A stretch of 64,000 nucleotides of DNA, taken from positions 6,047,501 to 6,111,500 of the forward strand of contig OZ004583.1 of the NCBI GenBank assembly GCA_963924555.1, given 5' to 3'. Source of the stretch: Crambe crambe (lineage: Eukaryota; Porifera; Demospongiae; Poecilosclerida; Crambeidae). The number at the start of each line of letters is the position of its first letter. Within the stretch, counting starts at the first letter, position 1. The position numbers and the translations under genes were made by a program. Positions 14,727 to 56,014 of the stretch are shown here, piece by piece. The notes below the pieces were generated by a model. The model worked only from the letters and a program-made list of their open reading frames with translations. It did no database searches and was not told the DNA's origin.

Positions 14727-15002
14727 TAGTCAAAGTACTAGGATTCTCCCCAGTTAAACTGATCAGAGCAGGTCACATTAACTTGTGGCTATTAAAATAC
14801 ATTGTTTTAACCACATGAAAGAAAAATGGACCCCATCAGAGTAGTGTTGCACTTCTCTAACACTGTTTGGGGAGAACTTGATGATGGATGTGGGAGAGGT
14901 AGTTGTGTTACCTCACACATTCACTGTCAAATAAGGAAGTGACTCTATTTATAACTAATGAAGGTCATTATCACAATTGACAGATCTTGGTACAGCCTAG
15001 CC

Positions 15003-26500: not shown

Positions 26501-27261
26501 GTCTTTTTTTCGATATGATATCTTGAATTTGCTGTGGAGATCTTGATCGATGCGAAAGAGGAAGAAGAATATGGATGGTCCAGATATCAGGAGAGGCACC
26601 ATCTCTTGGAACTCCACTTGACCACCAGTATCAGTCAAGTAAATCGAAAAGGAGTTCTTTAAATACCTTTGAACTCTGCTATAACCATATTTACTTATTA
26701 CTGATGAAATGTTATGAATAAGTTTTGGTGGAGGCAAGAGTTGTCTTCTGGAGAGATTAGCTTCATCACTTGTTAGCATTTCTGAAGTGACGGAGCCACT
26801 GGTTTGACATGGAGTCGTAAAATGCGATACATGTGGAGATGTTACTGGTTGAGGTGGAACAGTTGATGGTGCAGGAGGAGGCATTGTTCTGGATGTTATT
26901 GTTTTGGGTATGATTGTTATGCTTTCCTTGTTCATTTGCCTCACAACAGACACCTCAAACTCGGCTTCGGACCACTCCCCAGCCTGTAGTAAAACTGTAA
27001 CTGATGCATGTGTGGCAGAAGAATCTTCTATTCCAACATCCACTATAACGACAGGTTCACAGACACCAGTGGAGGGAGAGAAGTCCTTTAGTTCTTTCCG
27101 AACAAGGCGAGTGATTAACGAACTCTTTCCAGAACCAGGAGAGCCTAGAAAGACAGAATGTACTAATTTTCGTTTTATCGCTCCAGATTTGTTGATGGCT
27201 TCTTGAATCACTTTGAGAAATTCTTTTTCATCTACTTCATCCTGACCAGAATCGTGGTCTC
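23253..27261 (-). pseudogene. Roc-COR-like GTPase with death domains, copy 1 (frame broken)
   Basis: Exons inferred on minus, all phase 1: 27261-25155 (GTPase plus COR-like), 25084-25025, 24337-24083 (death domain with LTENQLLLLGVALGLYWPN and PTWKSLIKALDEI), 24014-23952, 23696-23649, and 23534-23253 (death domain with WEEFAQKLGIKPGNIGK and NWRTLANAVQ). In the large exon, GSPGSGKS is the P-loop, DTGGQVEF switch II and GTHKDLL the base-recognition motif; a helical COR-like region and a Cys-rich tail follow. Near 26273 eleven bases present in copy 2 (about 48994-49005) are absent, which shifts the frame within the exon; unless spliced around, the GTPase and COR parts are no longer joined. The last exon either splices onward or stops two codons later (TAG 23247-23249). 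Relatives are animal Roco proteins; a role in death-fold signalling is inferred. Confidence 0.7.
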
Positions 27262-28380
27262 CTACAAGTATAGTAAGAAACCATTAATAAAATGTTTCTG
27301 GACAGATAACATACTCATGTGGTAACTAATTAGTATATTTTATATTGTAATCATTACTAGGCAACATTTGACAGCAAGAAAGAGAGCAAGTATTTCTATA
27401 GCTTTTAGAGCTGATAGGCTCCAATTAATTTGTACTGAAAGACTGTGGGAAAAATCTTCTTTCTGCATGTGCAAGCTCATCAGCAGTCTTATAGAGGCAC
27501 CTGCTAAACTGAATGTGACAAGCTATCAAGCTAGCACTATGAACCCAAGCCATCAGTTCTACACTTGGGTCAGAGAACCCAGAGACACCAGAGGTTAGCA
27601 ATGAAAGGAAAGTAGCTTTCTTTACACAACTCTAAAGTGGCCATATGGACAGAGTCATAATCAGTTAGCCTTCAGACTTTGGATTTTCTACTGTTAGATA
27701 GCCCAAAGAATCCTCTTTTGATATACTGCGAGTGCAAAAAATTTCTTCTAAATAATAATGCTAAATAGGGGTGGCCCCAAATTCAGCTGGACTATGACTG
27801 CAGCATCATATCAAACCAAGCCGTATGGCCCCAAAATCTATGCACTTTGACTGCAGCACATATCAAACTGGGCTTGGATTGATACGATGTTGCAGTCAAA
27901 GTAGTACATAATCTAGCTAGATTTTTTGGGGCCATACGGCTTGGTTTGATAATTACATGGCCCAACTTTTACCAGTCAGATTTCATGACACATAATGGAA
28001 TCCCCATACGAGTGGGGTCCAGTAACCTTCCATTTTAAGTAAACCAGATCACCAACAGCAGACGTACAAAGAGGTTTCTTTGAATCATGCAATTGTTTCT
28101 GCATTAACTGTTGATTTTGAACTTTTGGTGTGAAATAGTAAATCAAGTCTGGATCGAAGATGACGACCAATAAGAAGTTCTGCCGGATAGAACTGTCTTT
28201 GATACTTTTGATCCCCAATTTGAATGACTGGATTGTTAACAGGTAGAGGTAGCTACAGGTTTAGCCCTGGAAATATGCTAGCCAGTATGGTGGAGGTGCA
28301 GCTGCTTAGGGAGCTCAAGCAGAAAGTGACCGAGTCAACTGTTCACCCCATCAAGAAGGACTTCATTGAAGGATTAAAAA
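27262..28380. other. Gap upstream of the Roc-COR exon, with a hairpin
   Basis: Contains a minus-strand open stretch near 27600-27470 (shared with 50405-50199; no domain recognised) and the hairpin at 27810-27950. If the death-domain exons at 33 kb and the GTPase exon belong to one gene, this is part of its longest intron. Confidence 0.4.
27810..27950. repeat. Hairpin MITE
   Basis: The 27-bp arms start ATCAAACCAAGCCGTATGGC and end in the mirror image. An inner shell pairs ACTTTGACTGCAGCA with its near complement. It is duplicated at about 50620-50760. Confidence 0.75.
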
Positions 28381-32403: not shown

Positions 32404-33115
32404 TACTTGCTTCATAACAAGTTCCAACTTTTCAGATTCATACCATTGAGCCTGGTATCCAAACAATAAAAATGCAAAAATTTTCTCCTAATAAGTTGAA
32501 GTTGATTAGTGTGTTGACCTGCTTTGAAACATTAGTTAGTGTGTCTATTTGCTTGTCCTTTAATCAACACTCTATCAGCTGTGTGGGTAGCATGATGCTT
32601 TCTTGATTTTTGACTTGTAGATTTAGAAATAAATGCTTTGTTCAAGAGTTACGGTACTTTATGCTCACCTCAAAGACTGCTGCGATGAATTAAGGAAGGG
32701 AAATCTGTGTGTAACTACTAATGAAGTAAGCCAGTAGACTTCTAACTGACATGAGAGTGTGGCAAAGCTAAGAAGCAACTGTCTATACAGTGGTATAGGA
32801 AGATGATTTAGAGACCCCCAGGAAAATATTGGATTTTAGGTTTAACCTGACATAAGAAGCACAAAATAAGAGAATGAAAATTAAGCTCTCAAATCACCAA
32901 GCTGGACTGGCCCTTATGGGGTAGCTATGTTTGCTAACTTGTTACCACATACACAATATTTACATACTTACAGATTCGAAATTCATAAAAACTTTCTGTA
33001 CATAATATGCACAGTATGTGAAACATAATGAAACCATGCATGACTGTAATAGCAGCAACATTACCCCTTTAAGTTTCAATGCTAATAGGCAGTTATTGGT
33101 GTGTGTAAGTCTCAC

Positions 33116-36100
33116 CTTTGACATACTTGGTGGTTACATCCTCAGCAAGTGCATCGTAACCTGCACGCTTGAGCGCCCTGGCCAATCTCCTCCAATCAAT
33201 AACAGGGTTAAGACGCACCATGATCTCAGCTAAGGCTTTCTTTGGTGTAGTACTCTCACTGGACTTGATTCTTTCTATTAGATGTAGAAGTCGTGCCACT
33301 TTCTCCCAATCGTCCACTTCCTCCAACACCTTGTTTATTCTCTCAATGCTGAAGTTGGAATCTGTTAATGATGAAATGAAGATGTACAGGTATAATTATT
33401 CCAACATGATTACTCAAAAACTAAGTGACTATCCCATGCATTGTAGAATGAGAATTAGAATAGTATTGTGCACATAGCTACACATCATACATGAGTCAAT
33501 AAATTTCCCCTACAGCATGTGCACACTTGTACTGATCATTCTGGCTATAGCTGTAATGGATCACTAAAAACAACTAACTCACCTCTAGTACAATAATCAC
33601 AAGCTTTAATGGCCACATCTACATCTTTATAGAGTGCAGTTGCAGTAATTGCCTTCCAAGGTTGATCTGGATGGCTACTGATGTAACACATGGCAGCTGC
33701 CTTCACTTGCTGCTCCTCACTGGGTATACAGGACTTAATACGACGCATTAGACTAGAGAATGGTCTGTAGCCATTGGAATCTTTCACATTGTATATAATG
33801 TGCAATGTTGACTCCTTTGCACTCATTAGTACAGTCGTCAGGTTCTCAACTGTCATTGTGGGGTCTGCAGGGAAAACTTGATTACTGCTAGAACTGAATG
33901 GAAATAATGACCTATGACACAATAGCTACTTTAATCACTTAAAGGGAATTGTCTATGGAAGGGATAGTTTGTGTCATGAAACCATAGAGTCATTTTGGAT
34001 TCCACTGTATCCCATATGAACCATACACTGCAATTTAGTTGCTATGGCATGTACACATGCTATTGAGATCTTACAACTCTAACAAAGCATGGAAAGGGTT
34101 TTAATAGAGGGTACAAAGTTGAATTCAAGCAATCCATATACACTGTTTGAGAATAAGTGTGTTCTAATTGTATTGCAGCCATACAGCTAGCTGATGGGAT
34201 GTAATAGTTGACAGAGTCAGTCACTATGAAATGGAAACAAGTTCCATCAGTTTACACTCAACACTTAATACAGTTCTTAAAATAGTCCAGCTATATGTAC
34301 TATAATGGGAGGGGTTAAGTGAGAATCTGAGAATACAATCATCTAATGAATCAATCTGGCTGAGCCAATTACAAAAACTCTGAGGAGTATGCCATGGGTA
34401 GAATCTTAATAAAGATATTAGCTAGCACACAGTCAGTCAATTAGTCTAAAGTTAGGAGAGGGATGTGTGTGATGGAATAGGGGATTTCCCCTAAATTACC
34501 TGTCACTGGCTCTGCAAAGTTTCTGATGCTGTCAGCATACTTGCATCGACCAGTTCTATCCATTATGCTTATGAGTTTTCTCCATGTAGTGATAGCTTGA
34601 CCAGTCAGGAATTCTTCCAAAGAGTAGTAGTTTTCCTCATACTCCCCCAGAAGTACATATGTATATTTCTGCACATTCTCAACAGAGAAATCTGATCCTA
34701 AAAGAGAATAATAATGTTACTTAGTCGGGATTCTAAGCATGCAATATACGTATGCAGGGCCTAACCTTTTAAAACTCCAGGAATTATAATTCTAAGTATC
34801 AGTTCTGATATTAGATAAGTATGAATGCTATTAATGCTACTATTAGTATGCATATGAGAAATTTTATAGGAATCCCATTCCTTAGGTTATATAGGCTAAT
34901 GAGATTCTAGTGGTCACATGGTCATACCAAAAAGATATAGTCCACTTAGATTTCACTTGGTAAGTCAAAAGACAACTCAAGAGTTTCTAAACTATAGCCA
35001 GCCACTCACATCAAGATCATTACATTCCTGGATCCTATATGGATCATGTCAATACTACTAGAATTTCTTACACTGTTAGCTTACAAAGTATCAACAAGAA
35101 ATGTATCTCTCACCATTAGGAAGGTACTTTGATGCCTGTTCAGCTGCAATCTCCTCCCCACAGTGAGACAGTGCTGTCACCACATTCCCCCAGGTCACAT
35201 AGGGGCACACATGGACTAGGTGATGAACGAGGGCTCCTTTCTGATCGTGAGCAGACTTGATCTGTGATATAGTATGGTCAGCGATCCCCATGTACTTTGA
35301 TATGGTCTCCCAGTCCTCCACCTCCTTTAATATCTCACTTAACAACTCAGCAGTAAATGTTGGATCTGGTAAGAGGAAAAAGTAGTCTCAAGTGTATGCC
35401 CAAGAACAGCGATGACTATGTATGTCGTACTCATCACTTTATTTATATAGCACTAAATTTTCATGGTTTGCAATAGAAGTGTGAACCTCTAATTATTTTG
35501 CAATACCACCAAATCTGCAAAAAAATTACCCCATGAAAAATTCCTGCAATATGGTAGCTTACTGTCCCCTGACCTTTTGAGAAGTTAGTCATGGCACTCT
35601 CAGCAGCCTTCATCTCTCCAACTTCATAGAGCAGTAGGGATAATAACTTCCAAGAGGGACAACCATGACTGGTTATGTAAAAAGAGGCAGCAGCTTGTAT
35701 CTTCTCCTCTCCACTTAGGGATGAGATGCAGGAGAAAACAAACCAAGGACAGCCACCAATAGAATGCGTCTGTTTATCCAGTACAGATGACACATCTCCC
35801 TCTATCTGCATGAGTACTGCTGCTACATTCTCTACACTCAAGGTGGATTCTACAGGAGTAAACACAGCATGTTGCATGACATGGATCATAAAGTACAACC
35901 ATGCAGGTTAGGTGCTATTCAGATGGCTGCATGTATGAATGAATCACACTCATCAAGACTTAGTGAAGTCTGCATGTGCTCATGCAGTCATCCTTGTATG
36001 TCTCATGCAAACATTTCTCATAAGATAATGCATGGAGGTAAAGTATAGAGCTCATAGAGTTCCTATTGTGTAGCATTTTATTTTCAAGGAGTAGAACTTT

Positions 36101-39100
36101 TTTGTGGATCTTAAAATATGAAAATGGAAATTAAAACAAATACTCAAATCTTCCTACCAGTGCCACCTGACTGGGTACTGATACTAATTGTCAGTACTGA
36201 ATCTGCAGTTGATCAAGTTTTAAGTGACTGTTAATTGCTCAGCCTTGCCATTTTCATTCTGGGTGCACATTATTTAGAGTACTGTGCAGCAATTAGCTGG
36301 ATTGATATTTGATACAAATGTAGGCATGCATAGAGGCCGAGTTTTAAGTATGGTGAGCATGAATTGACTATAGTCAGAGCAGCAAGAAAACCAGAACACA
36401 CGAATGAATATGCACATATGTATGAATATAGCCTGCTGCATAAGGGGTAGGTGCCAAGATTTGTTAAAATACTAGATGGTCAATCTGCAAAAGTTGTACA
36501 GTGGAACCTCCAATAAAGGACCCTCCAAGAAAAGGACAACCTCCCAACAAAGGATGCTCTTTTGGGCCCCTTTCCCATAGCATTAGTACATTTTTAACCT
36601 CCGAGAAAAGGATAACCTCTCTGCAAAAACAAAGTGGCTGATCCCAAAGTGTCCTTTACTCGGAGGTTCCACTGTAATGAAAATTGAGCTCCTCCATTAC
36701 AAATTACTATGTAGTATCTATAGGTGGGCATTAATATAAGGGGTCATGATGGCAAAATAAAGTTATCTTGGCAATGGACTCTTCCAGATGATCATCACCC
36801 TGACATGCTTCAAACAATGTTCAAACTTATGCAACTTTCTCAGGACTTAAGCTAAAGTCAGGTCACACACATCAGGTCACACACAGAGAGACCTGAACTC
36901 TGGGCTATAATAATATCAGCTAACAATACAGTCATGCATGATGATCATACCTTGTGGTGGCTCAGCAAACTTTCTGATGTTATCAGCAACACTCTGTGGT
37001 CCTTCATAGGAAATATTATTTTTCACCATATCAAGGGCCCAAATTAGTCTCCTCCATGAAGAAGGTGCTCCCTTTCCTTCTAGCCAGGCATTGAGAACCA
37101 ATGCAACACTAGATGCAGGAGCATCTTCCACTGCTAATCGTCTTTTCAATGATGCTGCCTCTATCTCCAGTATTCGTGGGATGTACTTGGTGATGTTAGG
37201 TAGTGATGTTAGAGAAAACTTGTTTACTGAGAGAAAAAAATCTTGATTGGACTTATTAATGAAAATAGCTAGTGATAGAACTAACAGATAATGATTTAGA
37301 ATAAGATGTATGGATGTATGGAATAAAAGGAAGACTAGTTGTGTGATTTTACAAGGGGACAGAGCTGAGAGTCTCCTTATATGCCTACCGTAAATTGGGA
37401 AATTTTCACTGTTAAAAATAATTTGCGGTTGGCTATAACAACGAAAATTAAACACGTGAAATATTTTCTACATAATTGGTAAAGGTAATGATACTTCAAA
37501 ATAATTTTATCAACCACTTACTCTGATCAGGATGGACTGGTGTCACCACTGGAGGAGGAGGAGGAGAAGAAGAAGGAGGAGGAGAAAGAGAAGTAGGAGA
37601 ATGAGGCCGAGGAGGAGGAGGAGGAAGAGTGGAAGTACGGGAGGTCTCAGGTGCATTATTTAGATGGGGTGTGGTTAGTGGAGTGGTGTTTGGTGATGGT
37701 GATATCAGTGATGGAGTGACTGGAGGTCTTGGGACTGATAAAACCTATAAATAATTATGGTAAAACAGTAACTTGAATCTTCTTACTTGAAGACAAGTTC
37801 TTTCATGAAACATCAAAACCTTATGGTTTGTCAGCAGACAACAATTGAGTTATTGACTGACCTCTGATCTGAGGGGAAGTGGTGGATTGGTGATGCGAGG
37901 GTTGTGCTGGAAGAGAGCGGAGTCAACTGGAGAGGAAAAGGAAGTGGGTGCAGACCTCACTAATTGGGTGGGTGGAGTCTGGAGTGGGAGCTGTGAGAAT
38001 GGGTTGAGGTGGGTGGGATGAGTCGGGCCCTGTGGGTGTGGTGGAAGGGACGGGGGTTGAGTGGAGGATGAGGAAGGTGGTGAGGTGAGTGAAGGAGGCA
38101 TACGTCCAGTGAAGTGAGTAGGTTGGAGGGACACCTGTAACAAGTTTGAATAGAGGTCATGTGTCATACGTAGACCACCAAGTTATAAAGAATATTCTAT
38201 TTCTAATTTCATTCTGTGTATGCTTCAATATTATTTCCAATATCTTGTACTTTTCACATTATGAAATGCACATACAATTACATAGCACGAATATTTTCTA
38301 GCTGGTTAATTTTCTTAGCCCAGCACTAAACACAAAGCTTTGTAAAGTTTAGTTTACATGATTATACATAAAGAACAACTTTGATTTGAATTTTGGACAT
38401 GGCACTTAAAGTGGCTGAAAAAAAATTCTGTATGAAATCCTGGACACACTTGGACTCCTTTCGTCCTTTGTAGAGAGGTTATCCTCATATGTTTGTCCTT
38501 TATCAGAAGTTGCACTGTACTTATGACTGGAATGTATTTCCTTGAAATTTAGACGTTGTATTTCCACACGATGTGCACAGTGTACATGTAATTATGTCCA
38601 TCCCTTCAGTCTCTCATTCATAACTTAAAGCTTTTCCATTACAACTTGATTTACTATGTATGAGGATCTCCTCCTCCCCCCTCCCACCAACCTCGTCCTG
38701 GATTGAAAATAGGGAACCAGGTGTCTTGGGTTTATGTTGTGTGTCTATTACTACTTCCAGTTATCTGGTGACCCTTGGGACCTGTCCTGGTTACAGGGGT
38801 GGCAAGTGACCCTTGGGACTTGTGCTGGTTACAGGGGTGGCAAGTGACCCTTGGGACTTGTCCTGGTTACAGTGGTGGCAAGTGACCCTTGGGACTTGTG
38901 CTGGTTACAGGGGTGGCAAGTGACCCTTGGGACTTGTCCTGGTTACAGGGGTGGCAAGTGACCCTTGGGACTTGTCCTGGTTACAGTGGTGGCAAGTGAC
39001 CCTTGGGACTTGTGCTGGTTACAGGGGTGGCAAGTGACCCTTGGGACTTGTGCTGGTTACAGTGGTGGCAAGTGACCCTTGGGACTTGTGCTGGTTACAG

Positions 39101-42100
39101 GGTGGCAAGTGACCCTTGGGACTTGTGCTGGTTACAGTGGTGGCAAGTGACCCTTGGGACTTGTGCTGGTTACAGGGGTGGCAAGTGACCCTTGGGACTT
39201 GTGCTGGTTACAGTGGTGGCAAGTGACCCTTGGGACTTGTCCTGGTTACAGTGGTGGCAAGTGACCCTTGGGACTTGTGCTGGTTACAGTGGTGGCAAGT
39301 GACCCTTGGGACTTGTGCTGGTTACAGTGGTGGCAAGTGACCCTTGGGACTTGTGCTGGTTACAGGGGTGGCAAGTGACCCTTGGGACTTGTGCTGGTTA
39401 CAGTGGTGGCAAGTGACCCTTGGGACTTGTGCTGGTTACAGGGGTGGCAAGTGACCCTTGGGACTTGTCCTGGTTACAGGGGTGGCAAGTGACCCTTGGG
39501 ACTTGTCCTGGTTACAGTGGTGGCAAGTGACCCTTGGGACTTGTGCTGGTTACAGGGGTGGCAAGTGACCCTTGGGACTTGTGCTGGTTACAGTGGTGGC
39601 AAGTGACCCTTGGGACTTGTGCTGGTTACAGGGTGGCAAGTGACCCTTGGGACTTGTGCTGGTTACAGTGGTGGCAAGTGACCCTTGGGACTTGTGCTGG
39701 TTACAGGGGTGGCAAGTGACCCTTGGGACTTGTGCTGGTTACAGTGGTGGCAAGTGACCCTTGGGACTTGTCCTGGTTACAGTGGTGGCAAGTGACCCTT
39801 GGGACTTGTGCTGGTTACAGTGGTGGCAAGTGACCCTTGGGACTTGTGCTGGTTACAGTGGTGGCAAGTGACCCTTGGGACTTGTGCTGGTTACAGGGGT
39901 GGCAAGTGACCCTTGGGACTTGTGCTGGTTACAGTGGTGGCAAGTGACCCTTGGGACTTGTGCTGGTTACAGGGGTGGCAAGTGACCCTTGGGACTTGTG
40001 CTGGTTACAGGGGTGGCAAGTGACCCTTGGGACTTGTCCTGGTTACAGTGGTGGCAAGTGACCCTTGGGACTTGTGCTGGTTACAGTGGTGGCAAGTGAC
40101 CCTTGGGACTTGTGCTGGTTACAGGGGTGGCAAGTGACCCTTGGGACTTGTCCTGGTTACAGGGGTGGCAAGTGACCCAAATTTCAGGGGTCCAGATTAG
40201 AGGGATATAGCACATGTGCTCCAAAAACATTTGTAACACGAAATCAGGATCCAGTTATTAAGAGCATGAAAATACACGTGCTAAGTCATGGCCAACACAC
40301 TGTATGGGACTTCAGAATGTTACCTTATCTACATTATTAACCACCATTGTCTCTTTGTAGTAGTGTATGCTCCAAGAACCTTTGCTACATGAATATGATC
40401 TGATTACTGGGAGCGTGCAAAGCAAATATAAGCAGAACTCTATCAAAGTTTACCCACACACAGTCACAATATTTATATGGGACTTAGGGAATTTCCCCAT
40501 TTCCATATACATGGTCACACTGAGAAGCTTATCAATCCCACAAGTATGCAGTTGGTCATATTGGTCAGATTGAAGTGGGTAGAACATGAAATCAGGGCTA
40601 TAGCTGCAGGACCATATGGATGACCAGTGAAGTGGGGTGTGTGACCTACCTGAGGTGGGTGTGGTTGGTGTGAAGGATACATGCGAGTCATAGGAGGACG
40701 TGGAGGAGGAGGAGGTTGTAATGAAGGATAGAGTGTCGGAGGAAAACCAGAAGGAGTAAGAAGTCCTGGAGGAGGGTCTGGAAGGATAAAGAGTAAAATA
40801 AAGAGGTTGTCTTTCCATTAAGCTAATTTGCCTCTTTTACTGGTGGACTTTGACCTTCCTAAAGCCTCTCATAGAGTAGTAAAAACCACACCCAATAGCT
40901 ACACCCACCTGCTTAATTTAAAATGATTAGTGTATCATTTAAATATTTAAAGTCCAGGAAGATACAAAGTCATTCAATACTACCAAATTTTGATGACCAT
41001 TACCTAATATCAAGATGTGGTAAGGCCAAGCTTTAATAGAGACTCCGACCCTGTTACTACTTACTGTTTGGCATTGGAAGTGTTGGAGGAGATGAGTGTG
41101 GTGGAGCAGAGACTCCTTCAGGGAGACAAGTGGGAGTGAGGGTTTCTGATGATGGGACTGGAGGGTTATAAGACATATGAGAAGTCAGGGGGTGACAATA
41201 TCACAAAAAGCAAAAATAAATAAATAAAAAATAAACGATTGGATGATAATATGTCTCCCGTAAGTGAGGGAGGTGTTAAAAAACATGGAAATCTATTTTG
41301 TCAGGTCTCACCTTCAAGCTTCTGTTGTTTAGTAGGAGGTTCTACTTCAGTTTGATCAACCTCTAAATCAGGAAATGATAAGATAATCATACTTGGTAGC
41401 TAAGTATGAAGTCCTCCTAGTCCACCATACAGGAAGAGGGTCATTATTAGACCTTTTGGTGTGAAGGAATTTTAACGAGATTCATAAGCAAAAAGTCATG
41501 ATCTGGTGGCCACACCCATTGGTGGGCAAAGTTGTATAACCTTAGCAGATGGTGTTTCTCCTTTAGTGTAGATCCATTTCTACATCAGAACTACAATTCT
41601 ACTATACAAATATTCCCACCAATTCACATTTTGCTTATGAATCTCTTCATTATTACTTCTCCATGGATAGTTGGAGATGAGGCTATGTGCTATCCATTAT
41701 TGTTTATAGAGTATTGTAGCCAGGGATCAAACACTCAAGTAACTAGATTCTCCTTGATGGCAGTAGTTGTATAATAGCTAGCTAGCTATGTAGATGTCAC
41801 AAACAACGTTCCACAACCAGTTAATACCTTTATCAGCTGCTCTAGTCTTAGTCTTGGGTCCAGGGTTCACTTCCACATCCCCAGAGAGTAACAGGATACT
41901 TATAAGGAACAATACCGGCCTGTTACGTCCTCTGGAGCGGGACTCTCCCACTACCCTCCTCCATCTCAAGCAGTTGTGCAAGTGGTGTTTGATAGCTGTA
42001 CGATCATAGCTTATCTTGTTAACTTGCCACTCCCCCTCATCACACCATTGTCGCAGCAGAGACACAATCAAAGCAAACCGAAAGAATAATACGCTACCAG

Positions 42101-42113
42101 AACAAGATGACAT
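33116..42113 (-). CDS. Multi-death-domain protein with 2A-type signal start, copy 1
   Basis: Exons on minus, all phase 1-1 with GT-AG sites: 42113-41828 (signal/2A), 41362-41312, 41157-41065, 40777-40650, 38134-37862 and 37734-37522 (proline-rich), then six death-domain or death-fold exons 37226-36951, 35849-35574, 35365-35114, 34697-34500, 33864-33583 and 33361-33116. The third and sixth are clear death domains (VEDWETISKYMGIADHTI; VDDWEKVARLLHLIERI with WRRLARALKRAGYDALAED). The first is good (SSWRRLIWALDM); the second, fourth and fifth are diverged. The product would be a cytosolic proline-rich scaffold with tandem death folds. It may continue through a 5.8-kb intron into the GTPase exon at 27261, which is also phase 1; otherwise it ends seven codons after the last exon at TAA. 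No frame breaks were seen. Confidence 0.75.
36499..36674. mobile_element. Pogo/Tc1-type MITE in intron, copy 1
   Basis: 176 bp, ends CAGTGGAACCTCC and the mirror image, TA on both sides. It lies in the intron between the first and second death-domain exons. Its twin at 59391-59566 shows that it predates the duplication. A decayed relative is visible near 38440-38520. Confidence 0.85.
37522..38134 (-). CDS. Proline-rich exons of the multi-death-domain gene, copy 1
   Basis: Two exons, 38134-37862 and 37734-37522, encode mostly Pro, Ser and Thr (PPSSSSTQPPSLPPHPQ; SPPPSSSPPPPPVVTP). They suit SH3, WW or profilin-type binding and are probably disordered. Together with 41157-41065 and 40777-40650 they form a spacer between the 2A start and the death domains. 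Confidence 0.65.
38766..40178. repeat. 38-bp minisatellite, about 37 units, with higher-order structure
   Basis: Unit TGACCCTTGGGACTTGTGCT followed by GGTTACAGGGGTGGCAAG. Variants differ at GTG/GTC-C and at AGGGG/AGTGG. A 37-bp variant unit recurs at 39101 and 39632, and the order of variants repeats with a 531-bp period, so blocks of 14 units were duplicated together. It lies within the intron between proline exons 40650 and 38134. It is absent from the second gene copy. Confidence 0.95.
41828..42113 (-). CDS. First exon: hydrophobic leader plus 2A-like peptide
   Basis: ATG at 42113-42111 opens a 95-residue stretch. Residues 8-20 (VLFFRFALIVSLL) and 67-77 (VLFLISILLLS) are hydrophobic, the second running straight into GDVEVNPGP at residues 78-86 (41879-41856). 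DxExNPGP is the defining motif of ribosome-skipping 2A peptides; the break is expected between Gly85 and Pro86. The exon ends GATAAAG before GTATTA, phase 1. N-terminal 2A sequences acting as alternative signal sequences are known for sea urchin NLR-type immune proteins, so a similar dual-targeting role is plausible here. A 2A-bearing retrotransposon ORF start is the main alternative, but no such ORF follows. Confidence 0.75.
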
Positions 42114-42130
42114 GTCTGCCGAGATCCCGA

Positions 42131-42264
42131 GTCTCGATCTCGTGGGGTGGGGTCTTATTTGAATCTGAGCATGAGCAAAAATGGCGGGAATTTAAACATC
42201 TCGATCTCGTAGGGTGGGGTCTTATTTGAATCTGAGCATGCGCAAAAATGGCGGGAATTTAAAA
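42131..42264. promoter_or_regulatory. Doubled 67-bp promoter-like unit upstream of 2A exon
   Basis: Two head-to-tail units (42131-42197 and 42198-42264), each with TCTCGATCTCGT, GGGGTGGGGTCTTATTTGAA, GAGCATGMGCAAAAATGG and CGGGAATTTAAA. AAAATGGCGGGAA combines a YY1-like and an E2F-like core; GCATGCGCA in the second unit is an NRF1-like half site. The units end 18 bp before the minus-strand ATG, so they probably include the core promoter and transcription start. Confidence 0.6.
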
Positions 42265-42606
42265 ATGAAGAGCAGCTGATTTCAGGGTAGATGGTCTTGA
42301 GCTGTGCAATAAAAATTTAGCTAGAAATTGAATTATAGGTAACTGTCAGAGCCCAGTTTTAAAAGAGAAGGCTGTGAATGCCAGTCCCTTGTATACTGCA
42401 ACTTTCTCCCCCAATTTTTTTATTTGGCAAGATAGCAAGCTGGTTACATTCCTTTATCCTTTTCAAAGCTGTAATATTAAATGATCGATTATATATATAT
42501 TTTCAGAGGATGAAGAATTATGTGGGTTTGTTTAAAGGTAGTATTTTAACTATGTCCATAGTATAATAGCTGCACCTCCCATACTGTATGTAGCAGTGAG
42601 TAGTAG
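42265..42606. other. Upstream region between promoter unit and MITE
   Basis: Non-coding sequence; no further structure recognised. Confidence 0.4.
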
Positions 42607-42919
42607 GCCTGAGCTAATTATTCAGGAATAATTTTTTGAATAATAGGTAGCTTCATTCAGAAATTGAATAATAGGCTCTAATTGAGACATCTTTGGTGCT
42701 TCAGTACTATAATGGATGAGTTATGAACTATTATGACTGTCAATCCTGTCAATGTACATCCTTAATAATGATCCTTATTTCTAGCCACATTGGTCAGTCA
42801 GAGTGTTGTCATCACTCTGTTTTGAATAATAGGGGGCTGTCTCTTGAATAATAGGGAGCAAAATGTTGAATAAAATACTTGAATAATGGGCATCTATAAA
42901 TGAATAATTAGCTCAGGGC
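42607..42919. mobile_element. MITE with CCTGAGCTAATTATTCA ends, copy 2
   Basis: 313 bp, opposite orientation to 14394-14726, flanked by TAG on both sides (42604-42606 and 42920-42922). It ends about 10 bp before the start of duplicate copy 2. Confidence 0.8.
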
Positions 42920-43682
42920 TAGTGAGTAGTAATCTTTTTCACTGTTATAGCTACATACGTACAGCATATATAACTCTACACTATATACACCTTTTGATAG
43001 GAACCATGCTGACTAGATTAGATTGTCTTCCGTGTCTCATGACAGTCATGCCTTCGAACGTTACAAATCAGGAATTTGATTGCTATTTCTGTATACAAAA
43101 GACCCATTTATTTCTTCTCCCCTTCCTTCCAGAAGAGGTCTGACTGACTACCAGTAAACTTACAGAGTGATGCTGCAGCATCCTGAGATTGAGGCAGATC
43201 GTATGAAGGTGTAGTGGATGTTCAGTAGCTAGGCAGGAATCCAGAATCTGTATTCAATGTGTATAACTACTTACTCCACATGCTCCATACTAGAGAAAGG
43301 TCAACAAGCTACTCATTCAACAGGTTTCCTCGGCATTTCTTGTTTCGTTTATATCAACAGGAATTGACTAGCTACATTCGGCAAGACTAGATCTTTGAGG
43401 GCGTGTACTTTTGTTTCTCAACTAGCTATGGGCATGCATGCGCCAATGGCAGGAGTTTAAAATATTTTTTTCTATTTCAGTGATAACAATAAAGTATATA
43501 GTTACTTTAAATTCTAAACTTTAGCTGCAGGTGGTTGATCAGCTCTGGGGAGGTCACACATCATGCTGTAACAAAAAAAATCTATTATGACATCTGGGGA
43601 GCTTCCATAGGTAGCTATGCTCATTGAGCATGGTTTGGTCAACAATTAAAGTGTTGTATGTAGTCTCTCACCTTTCATATAC

Positions 43683-46737: not shown

Positions 46738-49700
46738 TAGATTTTGATGTTCCACTATGGAAGAGCTCAGAAGAATCAGATGAAGTAGTACCCTGCAATG
46801 CTAAAACAAGATACAGTTGCTGTCATGACTGTGTCATTAAGTAATAATTTATACTCACATTTTGATATTTTGTCAGCTGTTCCTTTCTGACCGATCTCGT
46901 CTAGAGCTTTTATCAAACTCCTCCAAGTGGGCTGACCACTAGTGGCAAGGACATTGTCAGCTCCATTTAACCAGGCTTCCACTAATTCTTTACAGAGGTA
47001 TTTCATCATCTTGAGATTTGGCCAGTACAATCCAAGAGCTCCACCAAGATCCAGAAGTTGATTTTCAGTCAGGTCTCTCAAGCACATGGACACTTGATGG
47101 TGGTGAGTCATAGCTGCACGGTGAGTAGAACAGTACAAAATATCTTGATAGTAGCTTTTCAATATAGCTAACTGGGCTATACAACTGGGGACACTTACCC
47201 AGAGCAGTATTCAAAATTGATGGCTGAACTTCTTGGATTGCTGAAACTGGCACACTGCATTCTGAAAGGGTGAGACTTCATTAAACTGTAAGCTAGCAAA
47301 CTGTGTATAGCTATACATGTGCCTACACAAAGTTTTGGGATATTATTATTATTATTATTATTGTTATTATTATTATTATGTAATGTGACCAACTCTCCTC
47401 CCCTGCTACAATAAGGACAAACATTCCTATGAGAATGAATACAAAATAACTTATTCATACGGCAAATGTTACCTTTTAATGAATCATTACTTCCACATAA
47501 TTTTTCATCCACTATAAAAGAAAAAATAATAATTTAGAAGGAGAAGAAGAAGAAGAGAAGAAAGAAGAGAAGAAGAAAGAGAAGAAAAAGGAGAAGAAGA
47601 AAAAGGAGAGAAGAAAAAGGAGAAGAAGAAAAAGAAGGAGGAGAAGAAAAAGGAGGAGGAGAAGAAGAAGAAAAAAGAAGAAGAAGAAAAAAGAAGAAGA
47701 AAAAGAGGAGAAAGAGAGGAGAAGAAGAAAAAGAAGGAGGAGGAGGAGAAGAAAATAAGAAGAAGAAGACGGAGAAGAAGAAGAAACTAGCTATCAGTAT
47801 GGGTGAATGGAAATCTACATTAGCTATAATTAAATATGTACATATTATGATAATATTATTACTTTATTTAATACACACCTTTAGGTCGAAACCAGACCAG
47901 GTTGTCTTCTGATAAAATACAGATCTCGTGTTTTTTACTGCAGTACATGAAGTAGTCTGCTTGCACCCAGCCTTGATATTTAACACGATGATTCAATGAA
48001 CACAGTTCACACTTGCAACAGAAGTAATGTTGGGTCTTGGTACTGTCGTAGTGAAGATCCTCTACTGAAGAATGGATGCTCTTCTCTATAACTTTACGAA
48101 TATCGTTACATAGATAACTGATGTGAGTGTGTTTTGATTTGCGTCCAGATGGATGTAGAATTACTTGCAAATGGGATGCAAAGAATTTAAGAGTCACTCG
48201 ATCTTCATAGCAACCGACACGGAATAATACTTGGTCCCTGAATATGAAATCTGGAAGAAGTTCCCATTTGAACCAGCTTTTGAGACTAGTAGTGATCAAG
48301 GTGTTTATTAAAACACCGAATATCCCCTTAGGGCAGTGATTACATTCAAACTCAATGTAGAGTGTGGGGATACTGGATACTTCGTCAGGAGTTTGTGACG
48401 CCTGGACATGGTTAAGGACACATGGGATGAAATACTGGTCTTCTTTATCTCTTGATGTGGTGATTTGTGATATGATGCGGAGATGTACCAGTAATTGCAA
48501 GAATGAATTTGGATCGATGCCATCTTCTGCTGTTATCACTTTCTTGAAAACTGAAGCAGAAATGATGCCCCTATGCTTAAAATCAGAGAGTTCTTGTCGA
48601 AAAAGCCGATTTGAAGAAAATGTCTCAACAATAAGATCTGTAACTTTATTGAAAAGCACTTGAGGTTCTCGTACGACGATGTCAAGCAAGCCTTTGACAG
48701 GAAAATACTTGATCCTTCCAATTCGGGTATGGAGAAATTGCAACAGATGCTTCACTTGGTCTTTACTGATGCCATACTGAGCAGCTAGAGCCACACATTC
48801 ATCAAAAGAAACTATGCTCTTCTTCAAATTTTCCAAATCAAGGCTGAACTGCATGTAACTGATAGGATAGTCAATGGCAAACTGATCTCCATCGATTACT
48901 ATTTCACTGACTCGTGATCGAATGCATTCAAAGTCCTCTTCACTCTTGCTGTAATTATCAACAGTGAACATCAACCTGTTGGATTGCTGATCTGCAAACT
49001 GAACCAAGTGCTGGTATCCATGCCTATTGATTAAATCATTCAACTGTCGGTCTATCTCACTGATTTTCTCTTCAGCATTGGAACCAAGCAGATCCTTGTG
49101 TGTGCCTACGATGAAAACTAGAGGTTGGTAGGTCTTGACTTCATTTTGGGCAGTTATGTCCATGGCATCGATACTAGCAAGGCACTGCAGCAGAGCATCC
49201 TCTGTGCTGATGGAAGATACATACGAATTGATAACTGTTCTGTCTTTTTTTCGATACGATATTTTGAATTTGCTGCGGAGATCTTGATCGATGCGAAAGA
49301 GGAAGAAAAATATGGATGGTCCAGATATCAGGAGAGGCACCATCTCTTGGAACTCCACTTGACCACCAGTATCAGTCAAATAAATTGAATAGGAGTTCTT
49401 TAGATACCTTTGAACTCTGCTGTAGCCATATTTTCTTATTACAGACGAAATGTTCTGGATTGATGGTGGAGGTGGTGGTTGCAAGAGTTGTCTCCTTGAG
49501 AGATCTACTCCATCACTTGTTAACATTTCTGAAGTGGCAGAGCCACTGGTTTGACATGGATTTGCAGACTGTGATACAAGTGGAGATGCTATTGGTTGAG
49601 GTGGAGCAATCGTAGTGGTGCTAGTCTGCACTGGTGATGCACTCTCACTAGCAGTGGATGGTGCAGGAGGAGGCACTGCTTTGGGTGTCATTGTTTTGGG

Positions 49701-50053
49701 TGTGATTGTTATGCTTTCCTTGTTCATTTGCCTCACAACAGACACCTCAAACTCGGCTTCGGACCACTCTCCAGTCTGTAGTAGAACTGTAACTGATGCA
49801 TGTGTGGCAGAAGAATCTTCTATTCCAACATCCACTATAACGACAGGTTCACAGACACCAGTGGAGGGAGAGAAGTCCTTTAGTTCTTTGCGAACAAGGC
49901 GAGTGATTAACGAACTCTTTCCAGAACCAGGAGAGCCTAGAAAGACAGAATGTACTAATTTTCGTTTTATCGCTCCAGATTTGTTGATGGCTTCTTGAAT
50001 CACTTCGAGAAATTCTTTTTCATCTACTTCATCCTGACCAGAATCGTGGTCTC
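46738..50053 (-). CDS. Roc-COR-like GTPase with death domain, copy 2 (open frame)
   Basis: Exons on minus, phase 1: 50053-47879, 47511-47473, 47261-47199, 47113-46859 and 46800-46738. Residue numbers run from the Met at 50003, though the acceptor at 50053 means upstream coding sequence exists. GSPGSGKS at 23-30 is the P-loop; a Pro/Ser/Thr insert spans about 100-170; DTGGQVEF near 211 is switch II; GTHKDLL near 300 is the base-recognition motif. Residues about 335-560 fit a COR-like helical and winged-helix region, and a Cys-rich tail ends the exon. The fourth exon encodes a death domain (LTENQLLDLGGALGLYWPN, PTWRSLIKALDEIGQKGTA). No equivalent of the last copy 1 death domain (23534-23253) was found. 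The likely role is a nucleotide-switched scaffold for death-domain signalling (inference from family). Confidence 0.75.
47341..47379. repeat. (ATT)n microsatellite
   Basis: A run of ATT units with one GTT interruption, between small exons of the copy 2 GTPase gene. Confidence 0.95.
47537..47787. repeat. 250-bp polypurine (GAA/GAG) tract
   Basis: Almost pure purine on the + strand, in the intron between the GTPase exon and the next exon (47879 to 47511). The transcribed minus strand is therefore a long polypyrimidine RNA. It is absent at the same place in copy 1. It could form triplex DNA and disturb splicing or replication. Confidence 0.9.
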
Positions 50054-52860
50054 CTACAAGTATAGTAAGAAACCATTAATAAAATGTTTCTGGACAGATA
50101 ACATACTGATGTGGTGACTATAATTAGTATATTTTATATTGTAATCATTACTAGGCAACATTTGACAGCAAGCAAGAGAGCAAGCATTTCTATAGCTTTT
50201 AGAGCTGATAGGCTCCAATTAGTTTGTACTGAAAGACTGTGGATGATACTGGGAAAAATCTTCTTTCTGCATGTGCAAGCTCATCAGCAGTCTTATAGAG
50301 GCACCTGCTAAACTGAATGTGACAAGCTATCAAGCTAGCACTATGAACCCAAGCCATCAGTTCTACACTTGGGTCAGAGAACCCAGAGACACCAGAGGTT
50401 AGCAATGAAAGGAAAGTAGCTGTCTTTACACAACTCTAAAGTGGCCATGATTGATATGGACAGAGTCATAATCTAAGCAACAGTTAGCCTTCAGACTTAG
50501 GATTTTCTACTGTTAGATAGCCTCTATTGATATACTGCAAATGCAAAAAATTTCTTCTAAATAATAATGCTAAATAGGGGTGGCCCCAAATTCAGCTGGA
50601 CTATGACTGCAGCATCATATCAAACCAAGCCGTATGGCCCCAAAATCTACGCACTTTGACTGCAGCACATATCAAACTGGGCTTGGATTGATACGATGTT
50701 GAAGTCAAAGTAGTACATAATCTAGCTAGATTTTTTGGGGCCATACGGCTTGGTTTGATAATTACATGGCCCAACTTTTACCAGTCAGATTTCATGACGC
50801 ATAATGGAATCCCCATACGAGTGGGGTCCAGTAACCTTCCATTTTAAGTAAACCAGATCACCAACAGCAGACGTACAAAGAGGTTTCTTTGAATCATGCA
50901 ATTGTTTCTGCATTAACTGTTGATTTTGAACTTTTGGTGTGAAATAGTAAATCAAGTCTGGATCAAAGATGACGACCAATAAGAAGTTCTGCCGGATAGA
51001 ACTGTCTTTGATACTTTTGATCCCCAATTTGAATGACTGGATTGTTAACAGGTAGAGGTAGCTACAGGTTTAGCCCTGGAAATATGCTAGCCAGTATGGT
51101 GGAGGTGCAGCTGCTTAGGGAGCTCAAGCAGAAAGTGACCGAGTCAATTGTTCACCCCATCAAGAAGGACTTCATTGAAGGATTAAAAAGAAAAAAAAGT
51201 ACCGAGGATGGTGATGTGAAAGTCTTGCCATGGAGAAAGCAAGGCAGACCACTTCTCCTTGGAGAACATTTGTACCGTAGAGTTCAGTTATATTTGAAGT
51301 TAGGGATAAATCATTCAGTGAACCAATACAGCAGTTGCTAAAAGCGAGGTCAAAATAAAGTCCAATTTTGCCTCCCCCCCCCCCCAAAAAAAAGAAGAAG
51401 AAAAACATATTTCAAACACGGGTTCCAGTTTAGCTAGACTTCGAGGGATAAAATTACTCTAGCAAAATTCAAACCTTTTGATCACATGGCAAGAGCTCTC
51501 GATTCATTACAGTTCATTCAAACTGGCTGCTAGAAAACAGCTGCTAAGATCGGTCAATTTTTTTGGCTGTATTACACCTATGGGGGACACATGTGGAGGA
51601 AGAAAATGTTTCCCATAGGCATAATACATGGAGCAAAAAAATATTTTCAATTCAATTTTGACTGGAGCAGTAGCTAGTTTCTGAAAATGAGGACAGTATT
51701 CCACTGACTCAGGCCAGTCTGCCAAATGTGACTGGATTTAAAATTTCTTGCAAGTTGTTAGAGCCTGTTAAAGTTTAAAAGCCACATACAAAATGTACAT
51801 GAACTTTGATAATGAACCAAATTGGTTTTGATCTTGATAGGATTGATTCTGAATTCATAATAATTATGCTTATCTGCGGTGAAATTGTACCTTTCAGAAC
51901 AGTGTATTTTATAAAATCAACACCTGCTTTGAAGAAGATAATATATATGTGTGTAGACCATGTTCTAATTATAAGAACAATACTTGCTTCAAAATATTTC
52001 AAAAAGTTTTCAGATTCATACCTTTGAGCCTGGTATCCAAGCAATAAAACATTTTAATATGAAGTTGATTAGTGTGTTGACCTGCTTTGAAACATTAGTC
52101 TATTTGCTTGTCCTTTAATCAACACTCTATCAGCTGTGTGGGTAGCATGATGCTTTCTTGATATTTGACTTGTAGATTTAGAAATAGACTGTTGCGATGA
52201 ATTAAGGAAGGGAAATCTGTGTGTAACTAATGAAGTAAGCCAGTAGACTTCTAACTGGCATGAAAGTGTGGTAAAGCTAAGAAGCAACTGTCTATACAGT
52301 AGCATAGGAAGATGATTTAGAGACCTCCCAGGAAAGTTTGGTGAAATCTGATGGGAATTTTAGCATAAGTAGTGCAAGATGATTTCTTAGAGAAATGAAA
52401 ATTTAGCCCAGCTGGACTGGCCCTTATAAAGCAAACCAGTTCTTCTTGGAGAACGTTTGGACAGCAAAGTTCAGTTATACTTGAAGGTCAGGTAGGGAGC
52501 ATCAGCTAGGATTGTAATGGTAGCTGGGCATGGAATTTTATAATAAAAACAAATTAGAGGAGTTCGGAGGTCACATCTCTCTATCTCAACATTGCTCCTA
52601 AGTTTGTTCCAGCTAATGGACCTATCGGTCCACAAACCAACCAGCTAAAGAATTTCATAGGGGTAAGTTCCAGCAACTACTCAGAAGAAGTAATGAAGCA
52701 AATAGAGGGAGAAGATATTGAAAGTATGGAACTGCAACCAATTGTCATGAGTATGGTTTCATCTGCTCAGAAATTGCTGGAGCATTGGATCCCTGAAGAA
52801 GAATAGATGTATTATAAACACCCATGGGGTTGGGAAAATATAGAGGAAAATAATCAGTGT
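50054..52860. other. Copy 2 gap with hairpin and pogo-like remnants
   Basis: Counterpart of 27262-30060. Contains the hairpin at about 50620-50760 and the pogo/Tigger-like remnants on + (LPWRKQGRPLLLGEHLYR near 51222; a second set near 52430-52806). No intact gene. Confidence 0.5.
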
Positions 52861-53035
52861 GGAAGCTCTTTTTGCTTCAAGAAGCAGCTGCTAAAACACC
52901 ATGTGATGAATATTAAAATACACACTTAGCTCATGTGCTCTAACTTGCACTGATAATACATATATGAGAATTGATATCAGCTGACCAGAGGCCAACTACA
53001 AAATATTTCAGCTTGAAAATATTTCCTAACCATTC
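52860..53035. other. Block present only in copy 2
   Basis: About 180 bp between AATCAGTGT and TTCAATTTTGACTGG that copy 1 lacks at 30083. Either an insertion here or a deletion there; no terminal repeats recognised. Confidence 0.6.
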
Positions 53036-54685
53036 AATTCAATTTTGACTGGAGCAGTAGCTAGTTTCTGAAGATGAGGATAATATTCCACTGACACAGG
53101 CAGAAATGGCCAGTCTGCCAAATGTTACTAAATGTACAATTTCAAGCAAGATGTTAGAGCTTGTTAAAGTTTACAAGCTACATACGAAATGTACATGAAG
53201 CCTAATTTTCAAACCAAGATGATCAAATTAAGATCTTGATATCATTCTGAAATTCATATAATTACATGCTTCAAATATGTTCTCTGAGTGAAGTAGTACC
53301 TTTAGAACAGTGAGTCACTTCATCAATGAGGGTTAATGGTATACTATAACCCAGGTTAATAGGCATGTGGAATGAGCGTGCAAGTGACTGGGCAGGTTGC
53401 ATAGGCACATGGTTGCGCAGTAGGGGTGATACTCAAGCAGTGGTCAGACTGAGAAGCAGAAGGCAAGCATACGATAGCAGAGCTGAAAAATTCACCCACC
53501 CGCCCACTTCCTGTGTAGCCTAACAAGGCTTGGGTCTTGTTAGGACCAAGTGCTGGGCACAGCATGGGTAGACCCAACATGTCTCAAACAGGACAGGGTG
53601 AGGCATGACCAAATATAGCAACCACATCAGTTGCTAAGGGGGCATTGCAGCAAAGCACTGATTGCGGGGGTGAGCCCCATGCCCAGCACAGGTCCCAATC
53701 TAGGTAGAAGGGGTATACTACATCGTAGGTAAGTAACGTGACATATTAAGTTTATACAAAATCATACACCCTCATTTGGATGTTTTGAAGGAGATGTAGA
53801 CCGTGTTCTACATTGAAATTATAAGAACAGTAAACTTGCTTCATGACAAGTTCAGATTCATACCCTTGAGCCTGGTATCCAAGCAATAGAAATAGCAATA
53901 GAAATGCAAACATTTTCTCCCAATAAGTTGAATCAGCTGTGTGGGTAGCATGATGCTTTCTTGATTTTTGACTTGTAAGATTTAGAAAGTTAAAGAGTTA
54001 CGGTATTACGGTATTATTTCGTAAGGAAGGGAAATCAAGACTTCTAACTGGCATGAGTGTGTCAAAGCTAAGAAGCTACTGTCTATATAGTGACATAGAA
54101 GACGATTAATATTAGGAAAGTGTTGGATTTTGGACCTTTTAGATTTAACCTGATTTTAGACATAAGAAGCGCCAAATGAAGAGAATGAAAATTAAGCTTT
54201 CTTACAGTGATGGCTTTGCAGGTTCAAGGTGCTACAGCTCTAATTTACCCCAGGGAAGGTCTATCAGTATGACTTTCTCTCCAGCAAGCACACAGGCAGG
54301 ACTGGATTCTCCTTCTTCAGTAGAATATACTTCAGCAAAGACATACAGTATGGCAGCTGCATGTAGCGGTGTGCAATAAATGGCATGCAATATGTGCACG
54401 TGTACGTATGCATGAACTTAATTAAACCATGTGACTTTTTGACAGTTTTATTTTTGGTGATAAACCACCAAAGCGTCAAATTAAAATCGTTGTATACATT
54501 TCCGGCCATACAGTAGCAACCACATCAGTTGCCAAGGGGGCATTGCAGCAAAGCACTCGAGCCCCATGCCTAGCACAGGTGCGTAGAAGGGGGTATACAA
54601 TATCATAGGCAAGATATTAAACAATCTTACACTCTCATCTGGATGTTTTGAAGGAGAACTAGACCATGTTCTAAATTGAGCAGTA

Positions 54686-55310
54686 CCGTAGGGCAGGTTA
54701 ATTTCATCAGGGAAAAAAATTCGTCTATTTCACCGTTGGTATAAAGAGTTGAAATTTTATTCGTCATAATTTTTACTGTCATATTTTTTTGCACACATTT
54801 TTTGCGCAACATACGTGGATCGTTAATCGCGATCGCTTTGTGTGAGAGCTAGCTAGAGAACTGCTCCAAAAGCTGCTCGTGGCTCTTCTCGAATAGTTGC
54901 ACCTGGTAGGGATCTCTCTAATCCTGATGGATCATTGTCCGCTTTGCCTATAGAAGCGGCATGCAGTTGAAGAGATGTAGGAAGAGTCTCAGATTAAAAA
55001 GAGAGGTCCATACATTAAGATGTCCTAATGAGGTTAGTTAGTTCTCGCCTACACTCCAGCTCCTCTCCTACAGCAGCAGCCCAAATAGCTTTGTATTGCA
55101 TTCGTGATAGCCACAAACGCAAGTGTCTCTCTTGAAATAGCTAGTTCACCTGCCTTTGCACTTCAACAGAAACTGGGCGGGGGGGGGGGGGGGGGGGGGG
55201 GGGGAATTTCGTCTTCAATGCACATGTGCGAAGATTTATCCGTTCAATTTAGTATAACGATTCCGGATATAGACAGAATTTTTTCCTAACGAAATTAACC
55301 CGCCCTACGG
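54686..55310. mobile_element. Tc1/mariner-type MITE with HIRAN-like fragment, copy 2
   Basis: Same element and same TA site as 31801-32403. It differs mainly by an expanded G-run at 55180-55204. Confidence 0.7.
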
Positions 55311-56014
55311 TACTTGCTTCATAACAAGTTCCAACTTTTCAGATTCATACCATTGAGCCTGGTATCCAAACAATAAAAATCCAAAAATTTTCTCCTAATA
55401 AGTTGAAGTTGATTAGTGTGTTGACCTGCTTTGAAACATTAGTTAGTGTGTCTATTTGCTTGTCCTTTAATCAACACTCTATCAGCTGTGTGGGTAGCAT
55501 GATGCTTTCTTGATTTTTGACTTGTAGATTTAGAAATAAATGCTTTGTTCAAGAGTTACAGTACTTTATGCTTACCTCAAAGACTGCTGCGATAAATTAA
55601 GGAAGGGAAATCTGTGTGTAACTACTAATGAAGTAAGCCAGTAGACTTCTAACTGACATGAGAGTGTGGCAAAGCTAAGAAGCAACTGTCTATACAGTGG
55701 CATAGGAAGATGATTTAGAGACCCCCAGGAAAATATTGGATTTTAGGTTTAACCTGACATAAGAAGCACAAAATAAGAGTAAGAAAATTAAGCTCTCAAA
55801 TCACCAAGCTGGACTGGCCCTTATGGGGTAGCTATGTTTGCTAACTTGTTACCACATACACAATATTCACAGATTCAAAATTCATAAAAACTTTCTGTAC
55901 ATAATATGCACAGTATGTGAAACGTAATGAAACCATGCATGACTGTAATAGCAGCAACATTACCCCTTTAAGTTTCAATGCTAATAGGCAGTTATTGGTG
56001 CGTGTAAGTCTCAC

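Follow-up and report, generated by a model that had tools for sequence, protein, structure and literature searches.

The window analyzed here is a 64,000-nucleotide stretch of the genome of the sponge Crambe crambe (C5:6047501-6111500; the genome comprises 143.1 Mb in 119 contigs, and contig (C) and locus (L) numbers are working labels). On its minus strand lies the start of a putative host gene whose first exon encodes a leader ending in the StopGo (2A) octapeptide DVEVNPGP. This leader exon (exon 1, 41828-42113) runs from an ATG at 42113 to a last base at 41828, measures 286 nt and ends in phase 1 at the donor GTATTA. It encodes 86 residues through the end of NPGP, followed by nine more ahead of the donor, and its translation reads MSSCSGSVLFFRFALIVSLLRQWCDEGEWQVNKISYDRTAIKHHLHNCLRWRRVVGESRSRGRNRPVLFLISILLLSG-DVEVNPGP-KTKTRAADK. 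The octapeptide, an exact in-frame match to the motif, occupies 41856-41879, and the skip would be expected between its glycine (41859-41861) and its proline (41856-41858). A Kyte-Doolittle scan places the hydrophobic run PVLFLISILLLSG directly N-terminal to it (41880-41918); the leader ends in RPVLFLISILLLSG-DVEVNPGP, and the upstream context looked for in StopGo sequences is present as ILLLSG. The same scan finds a first hydrophobic segment at residues 8-20, VLFFRFALIVSLL (42054-42092), which is signal- or anchor-like and centered about 71 residues ahead of the skip site. Within the window the exact site is the sole match at up to three mismatches. Since shuffled sequence yields 0.87 matches on average at that looseness, the evidential weight lies on the exactness of the match and on the genome-wide count.

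The window gene

Six further minus-strand exons can be joined in phase to exon 1, and exons 1-7 together form an open frame without a stop, the joins being predicted from sequence. Exon 2 (41312-41362) is phase 1 on both sides, and exons 3 (41065-41157), 4 (40650-40777), 5 (37862-38134) and 6 (37522-37744) are proline-rich. The intron between exons 4 and 5 contains a 38-bp minisatellite (38768-40178; 37 copies, 97% matches, Tandem Repeats Finder). Exon 7 (36951-37226) holds the first death-fold domain of the gene, as assigned by profile comparison. It has no match in Pfam; it scores 2.1e-22 against our own death-domain profile, of which it is itself one of the seeds, and a profile of its paralogs compared with other death domains gives a probability of 80% (E 1.3e-5). 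An AlphaFold model of exon 7 built on an alignment of 13 sequences is of low confidence, with a predicted local distance difference test score (pLDDT) of 56 and a predicted template modeling score (pTM) of 0.37.

Further open frames follow on the same strand. Two additional death-domain exons lie at 35094-35387 and 33096-33395 (Pfam Death E 0.0027 and 7.8e-4, both below the cut-off). They are followed by a P-loop/Roc-like GTPase at 26240-27283 (Pfam Roc E 2.6e-5, 24.9 bits against a cut-off of 27; Ras E 4.7e-5, 23.5 bits against a cut-off of 21.6), a COR-A frame at 25039-26298 (Pfam E 7.4e-11, over the cut-off), a death-fold frame at 24018-24470 (5.1e-9 against our own profile, no Pfam match) and a C-terminal Death domain at 23248-23625 (24.6 bits, over the Pfam cut-off of 22.6). 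Roc followed by COR, the mark of a ROCO protein, is present, with COR-A over its cut-off, Roc just under and the two frames shifted against each other in the window copy. Membership among death-domain proteins is carried by the Pfam match at 23248-23625, and at exon 7 by profile comparison alone. NACHT is absent from the window frames scanned against Pfam, and none of the 103 NACHT matches listed falls in the window. We read the leader through the Roc, COR-A and Death frames as one predicted ROCO-type gene of about 19 kb, in which the joins past 36951 are assumed. Sequence comparison reveals a second tandem copy of the gene body on the minus strand (46779-61416), offset by about 22.8 kb upstream; ahead of its exon 7, the similarity is confined to parts of exons 3 and 6.

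A first-pass annotation of the window had reported a perfect DVEVNPGP after a hydrophobic run closing the first exon, and an in-phase connection of that exon to proline-rich and death-domain exons; both descriptions agree with the coordinates and joined frame given above. It had called the locus a multi-death-domain gene, which is right as to the death domains and incomplete, Roc and COR-A being present as well. It had further described a promoter-like tandem unit just upstream. The tandem unit exists (67 bp, 2.0 copies, 96% matches in Tandem Repeats Finder, 42132-42263, minus strand, directly 5' of the ATG), and it is promoter-like by position only. Pieces of the 300 nt upstream of the leader also match in L013, L015-L017 and L023-L027. 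Farther out, two inverted pairs, 96-99% complementary, lie about 28 kb apart (14391-14728 and 42604-42921); one copy sits just 5' of the leader, where the copies occupy 42604-42723 and 42793-42921.

2A sites across the genome

The coding pattern D(V/I/M)ExNPGP occurs at 208 sites genome-wide (103 + 105), and the reversed pattern at none, a control that rules out a chance motif. The narrower pattern DVExNPGP accounts for 167 sites, and allowing one mismatch raises the total to 238, with 30 extra sites against 4 in the control. The sites lie mostly in tandem clusters, many of them on one strand (C8:0.60-1.09 Mb, for example, has 15 sites, every one on the minus strand), and some are solitary. 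Positions are listed for 200 of the 208, and 90 sites were read (the window and L001-L088, with two in L026). The octamer is preceded by [A/S/C]G at p10-p11 in 90 of 90 and by at least three aliphatic or phenylalanine residues at p6-p9 in 82 of 90, neither of which the search pattern demanded. The best donor after NPGP is in phase 1 in 88 of the 90, 1-34 nt from the motif, the exceptions being L068 and L070; at 13 nt, the donor position in six of the eight C-family loci, L001 and L003 read GC. BLAST of the leader parts upstream of StopGo resolves nine multi-copy groups and twelve singletons, some of the latter being short pieces, one (L026b) belonging to a broken leader A and others resembling larger groups by eye. 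The group letters A-K are working labels. Nine leader-C sites fall within C1:3553873-3988060 (L001-L008).

Death domains commonly follow these leaders. A profile of six death domains matches in 22 of 60 short loci (831 nt), three of these loci (L055, L044 and L064) belonging to genes that also supplied profile seeds. All 22 matches lie downstream on the same strand, 61-277 nt past the octamer, and none lies upstream or on the opposite strand. In 22 of 22, the leader can be spliced at a phase-matching acceptor so that the frame stays open through NPGP and into the death domain; this is a consistency check and a weak test, the splice script having allowed only phase-1 donors and matching acceptors. 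All 20 ten-kilobase loci (L009-L028, all on C5) have a downstream death-domain match or matches to the proline-rich exons of the window.

An alignment of 18 death-fold domains, 16 of which come from 2A sites, matches 46 PDB sequences with E values no higher than 1. The top matches are death domains (THOC1, 1.2e-7; RIPK1, 1.7e-5; PIDD, 2.4e-5; FADD, 4.3e-5), and unrelated proteins appear among the weak ones. Ten death-fold frames compared with Pfam gave three above the Death cut-off (L049, L031 and L028), three below and four unmatched; the frame at L061 matches Sec20 weakly and Death not at all. Other bodies occur too. A NACHT domain (5.5e-23) shares an open frame with a weak Death match at C12:668135 (L092). 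Ankyrin repeats lie near a site on C9 (8e-55) and immunoglobulin (Ig) domains near sites on C10 and C1, the link in these cases being proximity within about 3 kb.

Constraint, exchange and alternative readings

We give a probability of roughly 0.72 to the reading that the window exon supplies a host gene with a working StopGo leader. Most ribosomes would then release the leader between NPG and P and continue into the death-domain/ROCO protein, which would be a free-standing cytosolic product starting with proline; at other loci, that product would have an NLR or other body. The minority that did not skip would yield a leader-fused, membrane- or endoplasmic reticulum-targeted form, as in sea-urchin SpNLR2A6. 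Passages of Roulston et al. 2016 (PMC4981915) describe the SpNLR2A leaders of Strongylocentrotus purpuratus as hydrophobic, 26 residues long and situated on NLR proteins, with SpNLR2A6 skipping at about 80% in vitro and serving as a signal sequence if skipping is prevented.

The leader exons mostly evolve as protein. The ratio of non-synonymous to synonymous substitution rates (dN/dS) falls below 0.5 in most families: 0.35 in A (15 copies, to the end of NPGP), 0.24 in B (22), 0.30 in C (8), 0.45 in E (5) and 0.49 in Bt (5), all given as values without a significance estimate and biased over the octamer, by which the sites were chosen. Constraint extends to the 16 residues preceding the octamer (A 0.33, B 0.17) and to the leader upstream of the StopGo part (A 0.39, B 0.26). 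A search with the whole family-B leader returned 83 matches with no in-frame stop, 80 of them reaching the end of the query. The octamer is canonical in 79 of these 80 and reads DVETNLGP in the other, a count favored by a query that includes the octamer and by local alignment, which may clip changed ends. Family-B leaders diverge to 37% identity while the octamer stays. Two of the three matches that stop short are pieces of leaders whose end matches separately, and the third (C11:2665928) breaks off at residue 100, with a canonical site about 490 nt farther on. Family A gave 33 matches: the octamer is present in 23, another six are fragmentary and end before reaching it (in-frame stops occur in two of these), and the last four form a relic array at C13:2953180-2954434 (L094). 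The four degenerate leader-A ends of this array read DVELNPRP and carry an in-frame stop, the first three lying 231 bp apart, and the array is a leader fossil that has been amplified in tandem.

These data bear on the alternative that the leader serves only as a signal peptide or membrane anchor, with no skipping at an NPGP tail that is an inert fossil and with death-domain proteins that are all membrane-directed. The hydrophobicity of the leaders, some of which have transmembrane-like segments upstream, would suit it. Against it stand an octamer that persists in family B through such divergence, the [A/S/C]G kept at every site read, and distinct leader groups that all end in the octamer 1-34 nt before their best donor. 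Where the family-A octamer has changed, in the four NPRP copies on C13, an in-frame stop is present as well. We consider this alternative improbable and retain the StopGo reading.

Leaders also appear to move between genes. Leaders A and B occur on the same body type in the C5 cluster, and six leader-B loci keep leader-A pieces between leader B and exon 2. These pieces are truncated and carry stops in L014, L021 and L022 and are partial matches in L018 and L027, and in L026 the leader-A exon is split by about 1.1 kb. The leader-B donor of L022 is in phase with exon 2 by eye. Ten loci show an AG/GTG acceptor on the leader-B exon; its frame makes this acceptor phase 1, and with its phase-1 donor the exon is symmetric (1-1). 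The leaders are best described as candidate modular exons exchanged between paralogs. The exon upstream of leader B encodes a transmembrane-like segment, recognized by ATG and donor in three of ten loci (L010-L012) and by tblastn in nine (E <1e-4). Genome-wide, 66 of 68 such exons have a 2A exon following them on their own strand at a distance of up to 20 kb (median 1.7 kb). The 66 2A exons so paired are all distinct, and the DVETNLGP leader is among them. Counted from the methionine of L011 and L012, leader B then comprises about 174 residues over two exons and has two upstream hydrophobic segments.

The position of the hydrophobic segments divides the leader representatives. About 71-101 residues separate them from the skip site downstream in A, B and E, and the corresponding distance is 11-26 residues in C, D, F, G, H, I and K (here L046); leader J has both kinds of segment closer in, at 11-35 residues. 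In D, G, I and K, the run next to the octamer is the sole hydrophobic segment. The ribosome tunnel holds some 30-40 residues; the far-upstream segment of the A, B and E leaders should thus have left it by the time of the skip, so that targeting could come first. A released leader of these families would likely be a membrane peptide itself, made alongside the signaling protein. In the window leader, the distance of the first segment from the skip site means that it may exit the ribosome before skipping, and the plain picture of a secreted fusion or a cytosolic product, drawn from the 26-residue leaders of the sea urchin, may fail for a leader of 86 residues.

A second alternative follows this thought to its end: skipping would be essentially complete, co-producing a functional small membrane protein and an always-cytosolic death-domain protein, with no dual targeting. 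The long two-exon leader B and the near-complete pairing of its upstream exon with 2A exons speak for such a product, as does the constraint on the leader upstream of StopGo. A further point in its favor comes from passages of Li et al. 2026 (PMC12846837), where the RNA-virus StopGo motifs 2 and 6 have an LLLLSG-like upstream hexapeptide and D at p12, and where motif 6, of the same LLLLSG-like class as the leaders described here, was active when assayed. Against it, the D, G, I and K leaders, with the octamer-adjacent run alone, resemble the dual-targeting sea-urchin type, and we regard complete co-production as unlikely, preferring StopGo leaders that leave an unskipped fraction.

Odon et al. 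reportedly described 2A sequences in non-LTR (non-long-terminal-repeat) retrotransposons in 2013. The many-copy 2A motif in an animal genome is a likeness to such elements; the differences are the missing association with reverse transcriptase, the splice donor after the motif and the death-domain exons that follow. The first-pass annotation had proposed a 2A leader on a host death-domain gene, which the sequence supports and which extends to the 208-site set, and it had named the start of a many-copy retrotransposon open reading frame as what would overturn this; the many copies are real, the retrotransposon is not supported. That the exon begins a non-LTR retrotransposon frame or another 2A mobile element, the neighboring death-domain exons being unrelated, is very improbable: 2A is known in non-LTR retrotransposons (passages of Roulston et al. 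2016, PMC4981915), the leader families are multi-copy and an inverted-copy repeat lies just 5' of the exon, but the sites are largely in tandem clusters, many one-stranded, death-domain exons follow, the best donors are in phase 1 in 88 of 90, and the reverse-transcriptase family RVT_1 lies downstream of 4 of 200 sites, against a mean of 3.4 and a maximum of 12 for rotated sites. Here and below, proximity counts refer to the same strand, a distance within 25 kb, the 200 listed sites compared with rotated sites, and the best-scored family matches only. The RVT_1 set comprised the best 150 of 801 candidates, of which 124 were used, the others being on contigs without listed sites; none of the best 150 lies in the window. 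A retrotransposon origin was rejected on these RVT_1 positions.

Several results weigh against the StopGo reading of a host gene, in addition to the biases attached above to the dN/dS values, the family-B octamer count and the splice check. Constraint is weak in Bn (three copies, 0.65) and in K (three copies, 0.92; here L042, L043 and L048, which cluster with B by BLAST). With generic donor weights, 29 of the 90 best donors score below 3 bits, as does GTATTA in the window, and the modeled introns measure 35-268 nt, the shortest being implausible. In 38 of the 60 short loci, no death-domain match is found in the approximately 350 nt available downstream. None is found within 1.5 kb in the eight leader-C loci L001-L008 either, and leader C of L001 is followed by a transmembrane-like frame and an Ig domain. 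For COR-A, 26 of 200 sites have a match downstream, against a mean of 2.2 and a maximum of 16 in 500 rotations, and 25 have one upstream; for the listed Death matches the figures are 8 downstream (rotated mean 1.5, maximum 9) and 9 upstream. Being equally common on both sides, as in tandem arrays, the two families are associated with the cluster and indicate no direction. NACHT lies downstream of 6 of 200 sites, which is not above the rotated null (mean 2.9, maximum 29), and NACHT proximity was rejected as a general rule.

The window copy itself raises further doubt. Compared with the second copy, it lacks 11 nt near 26274 (within 26240-26298), a deletion that shifts the COR-A frame against the Roc frame; the remaining four gaps in the Roc-COR stretch are all multiples of three. 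The COR-A open frame of the window spans 420 residues, compared with 700-765 in 21 of the 26 C5 matches listed. The window copy, open through the leader and first death-domain part, may be a truncated gene or a young pseudogene. In the second copy, no 2A leader was recognized in the roughly 5.5 kb ahead of exon 3: when 13 leader peptides were compared with the end of the window and 3 kb beyond, the best tblastn match (E 0.15) was at chance level.

Relation to known systems

Like ROCO proteins, the predicted window gene combines a Roc-like P-loop and COR-A with Death domains; unlike them, it adds a StopGo leader, a proline-rich region and several death-fold exons before Roc. We know of no ROCO protein elsewhere with a StopGo leader. 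As far as the SpNLR2A leaders are described in the passages cited above, the likeness consists in an immune-type host gene whose N-terminal leader is hydrophobic and terminates in D(V/I)ExNPGP, the host gene here being identified from sequence. The window leader, in contrast, has 86 residues rather than 26, and its body has Roc and COR-A with no NACHT found, although NACHT is present at C12:668135. More broadly, genes carrying the leaders in this genome are of ROCO and NACHT type, other leaders lie near ankyrin and Ig frames, and a death domain often follows; the leaders form nine multi-copy groups, some longer than 80 residues, with a transmembrane exon in the largest and with apparent leader exchange. 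N-terminal 2A leaders on immune genes are known from the sea urchin; what is different here is the scale, the bodies and the long modular leaders.

With the viral motifs 2 and 6, as given in the same passages of Li et al. 2026, the leaders share the core octamer D(V/I)ExNPGP and an LLLLSG-like hexapeptide ending in (A/S/C)G. They differ from viral StopGo in belonging to host genes rather than viral polyproteins and in having a hydrophobic leader as the first product. Those passages state that StopGo is only rarely used in cellular genes, mentioning the sea-urchin case, and that Rao et al. 2025 looked for 2A across cellular proteomes; tables of that survey may hold parts of the present set. Among the titles and abstract openings covered by our literature search, none mentions 2A leaders in sponges or on death-domain or ROCO genes, which does not establish absence from print, and passages of a paper on NLRs of Dysidea avara describe no such leaders.

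A wider proposal is tentative, at odds somewhat short of even: that much of the innate-immune repertoire of this sponge is run through ribosome skipping. Some 200 genes of differing architecture, with interchangeable leaders, would each yield a free membrane leader and a cytosolic death-domain receptor, with the unskipped form tethered, and the leaders would be swappable cassettes kept skipping by selection. If some 200 host leaders, many of them on clustered death-domain genes, are active, StopGo would be a regular means of cellular gene expression, and recoding would be linked to innate immunity beyond the NLRs of the sea urchin. The set would also supply many natural leader variants for relating skip efficiency to the balance between membrane and cytosolic products. 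It would bear, too, on StopGo as an antiviral drug target, an idea raised in passages of Li et al. 2026 (PMC12846837).

Elsewhere in the window, on the plus strand at 4677-6241, long frames resemble a RecQ-type helicase by eye only.

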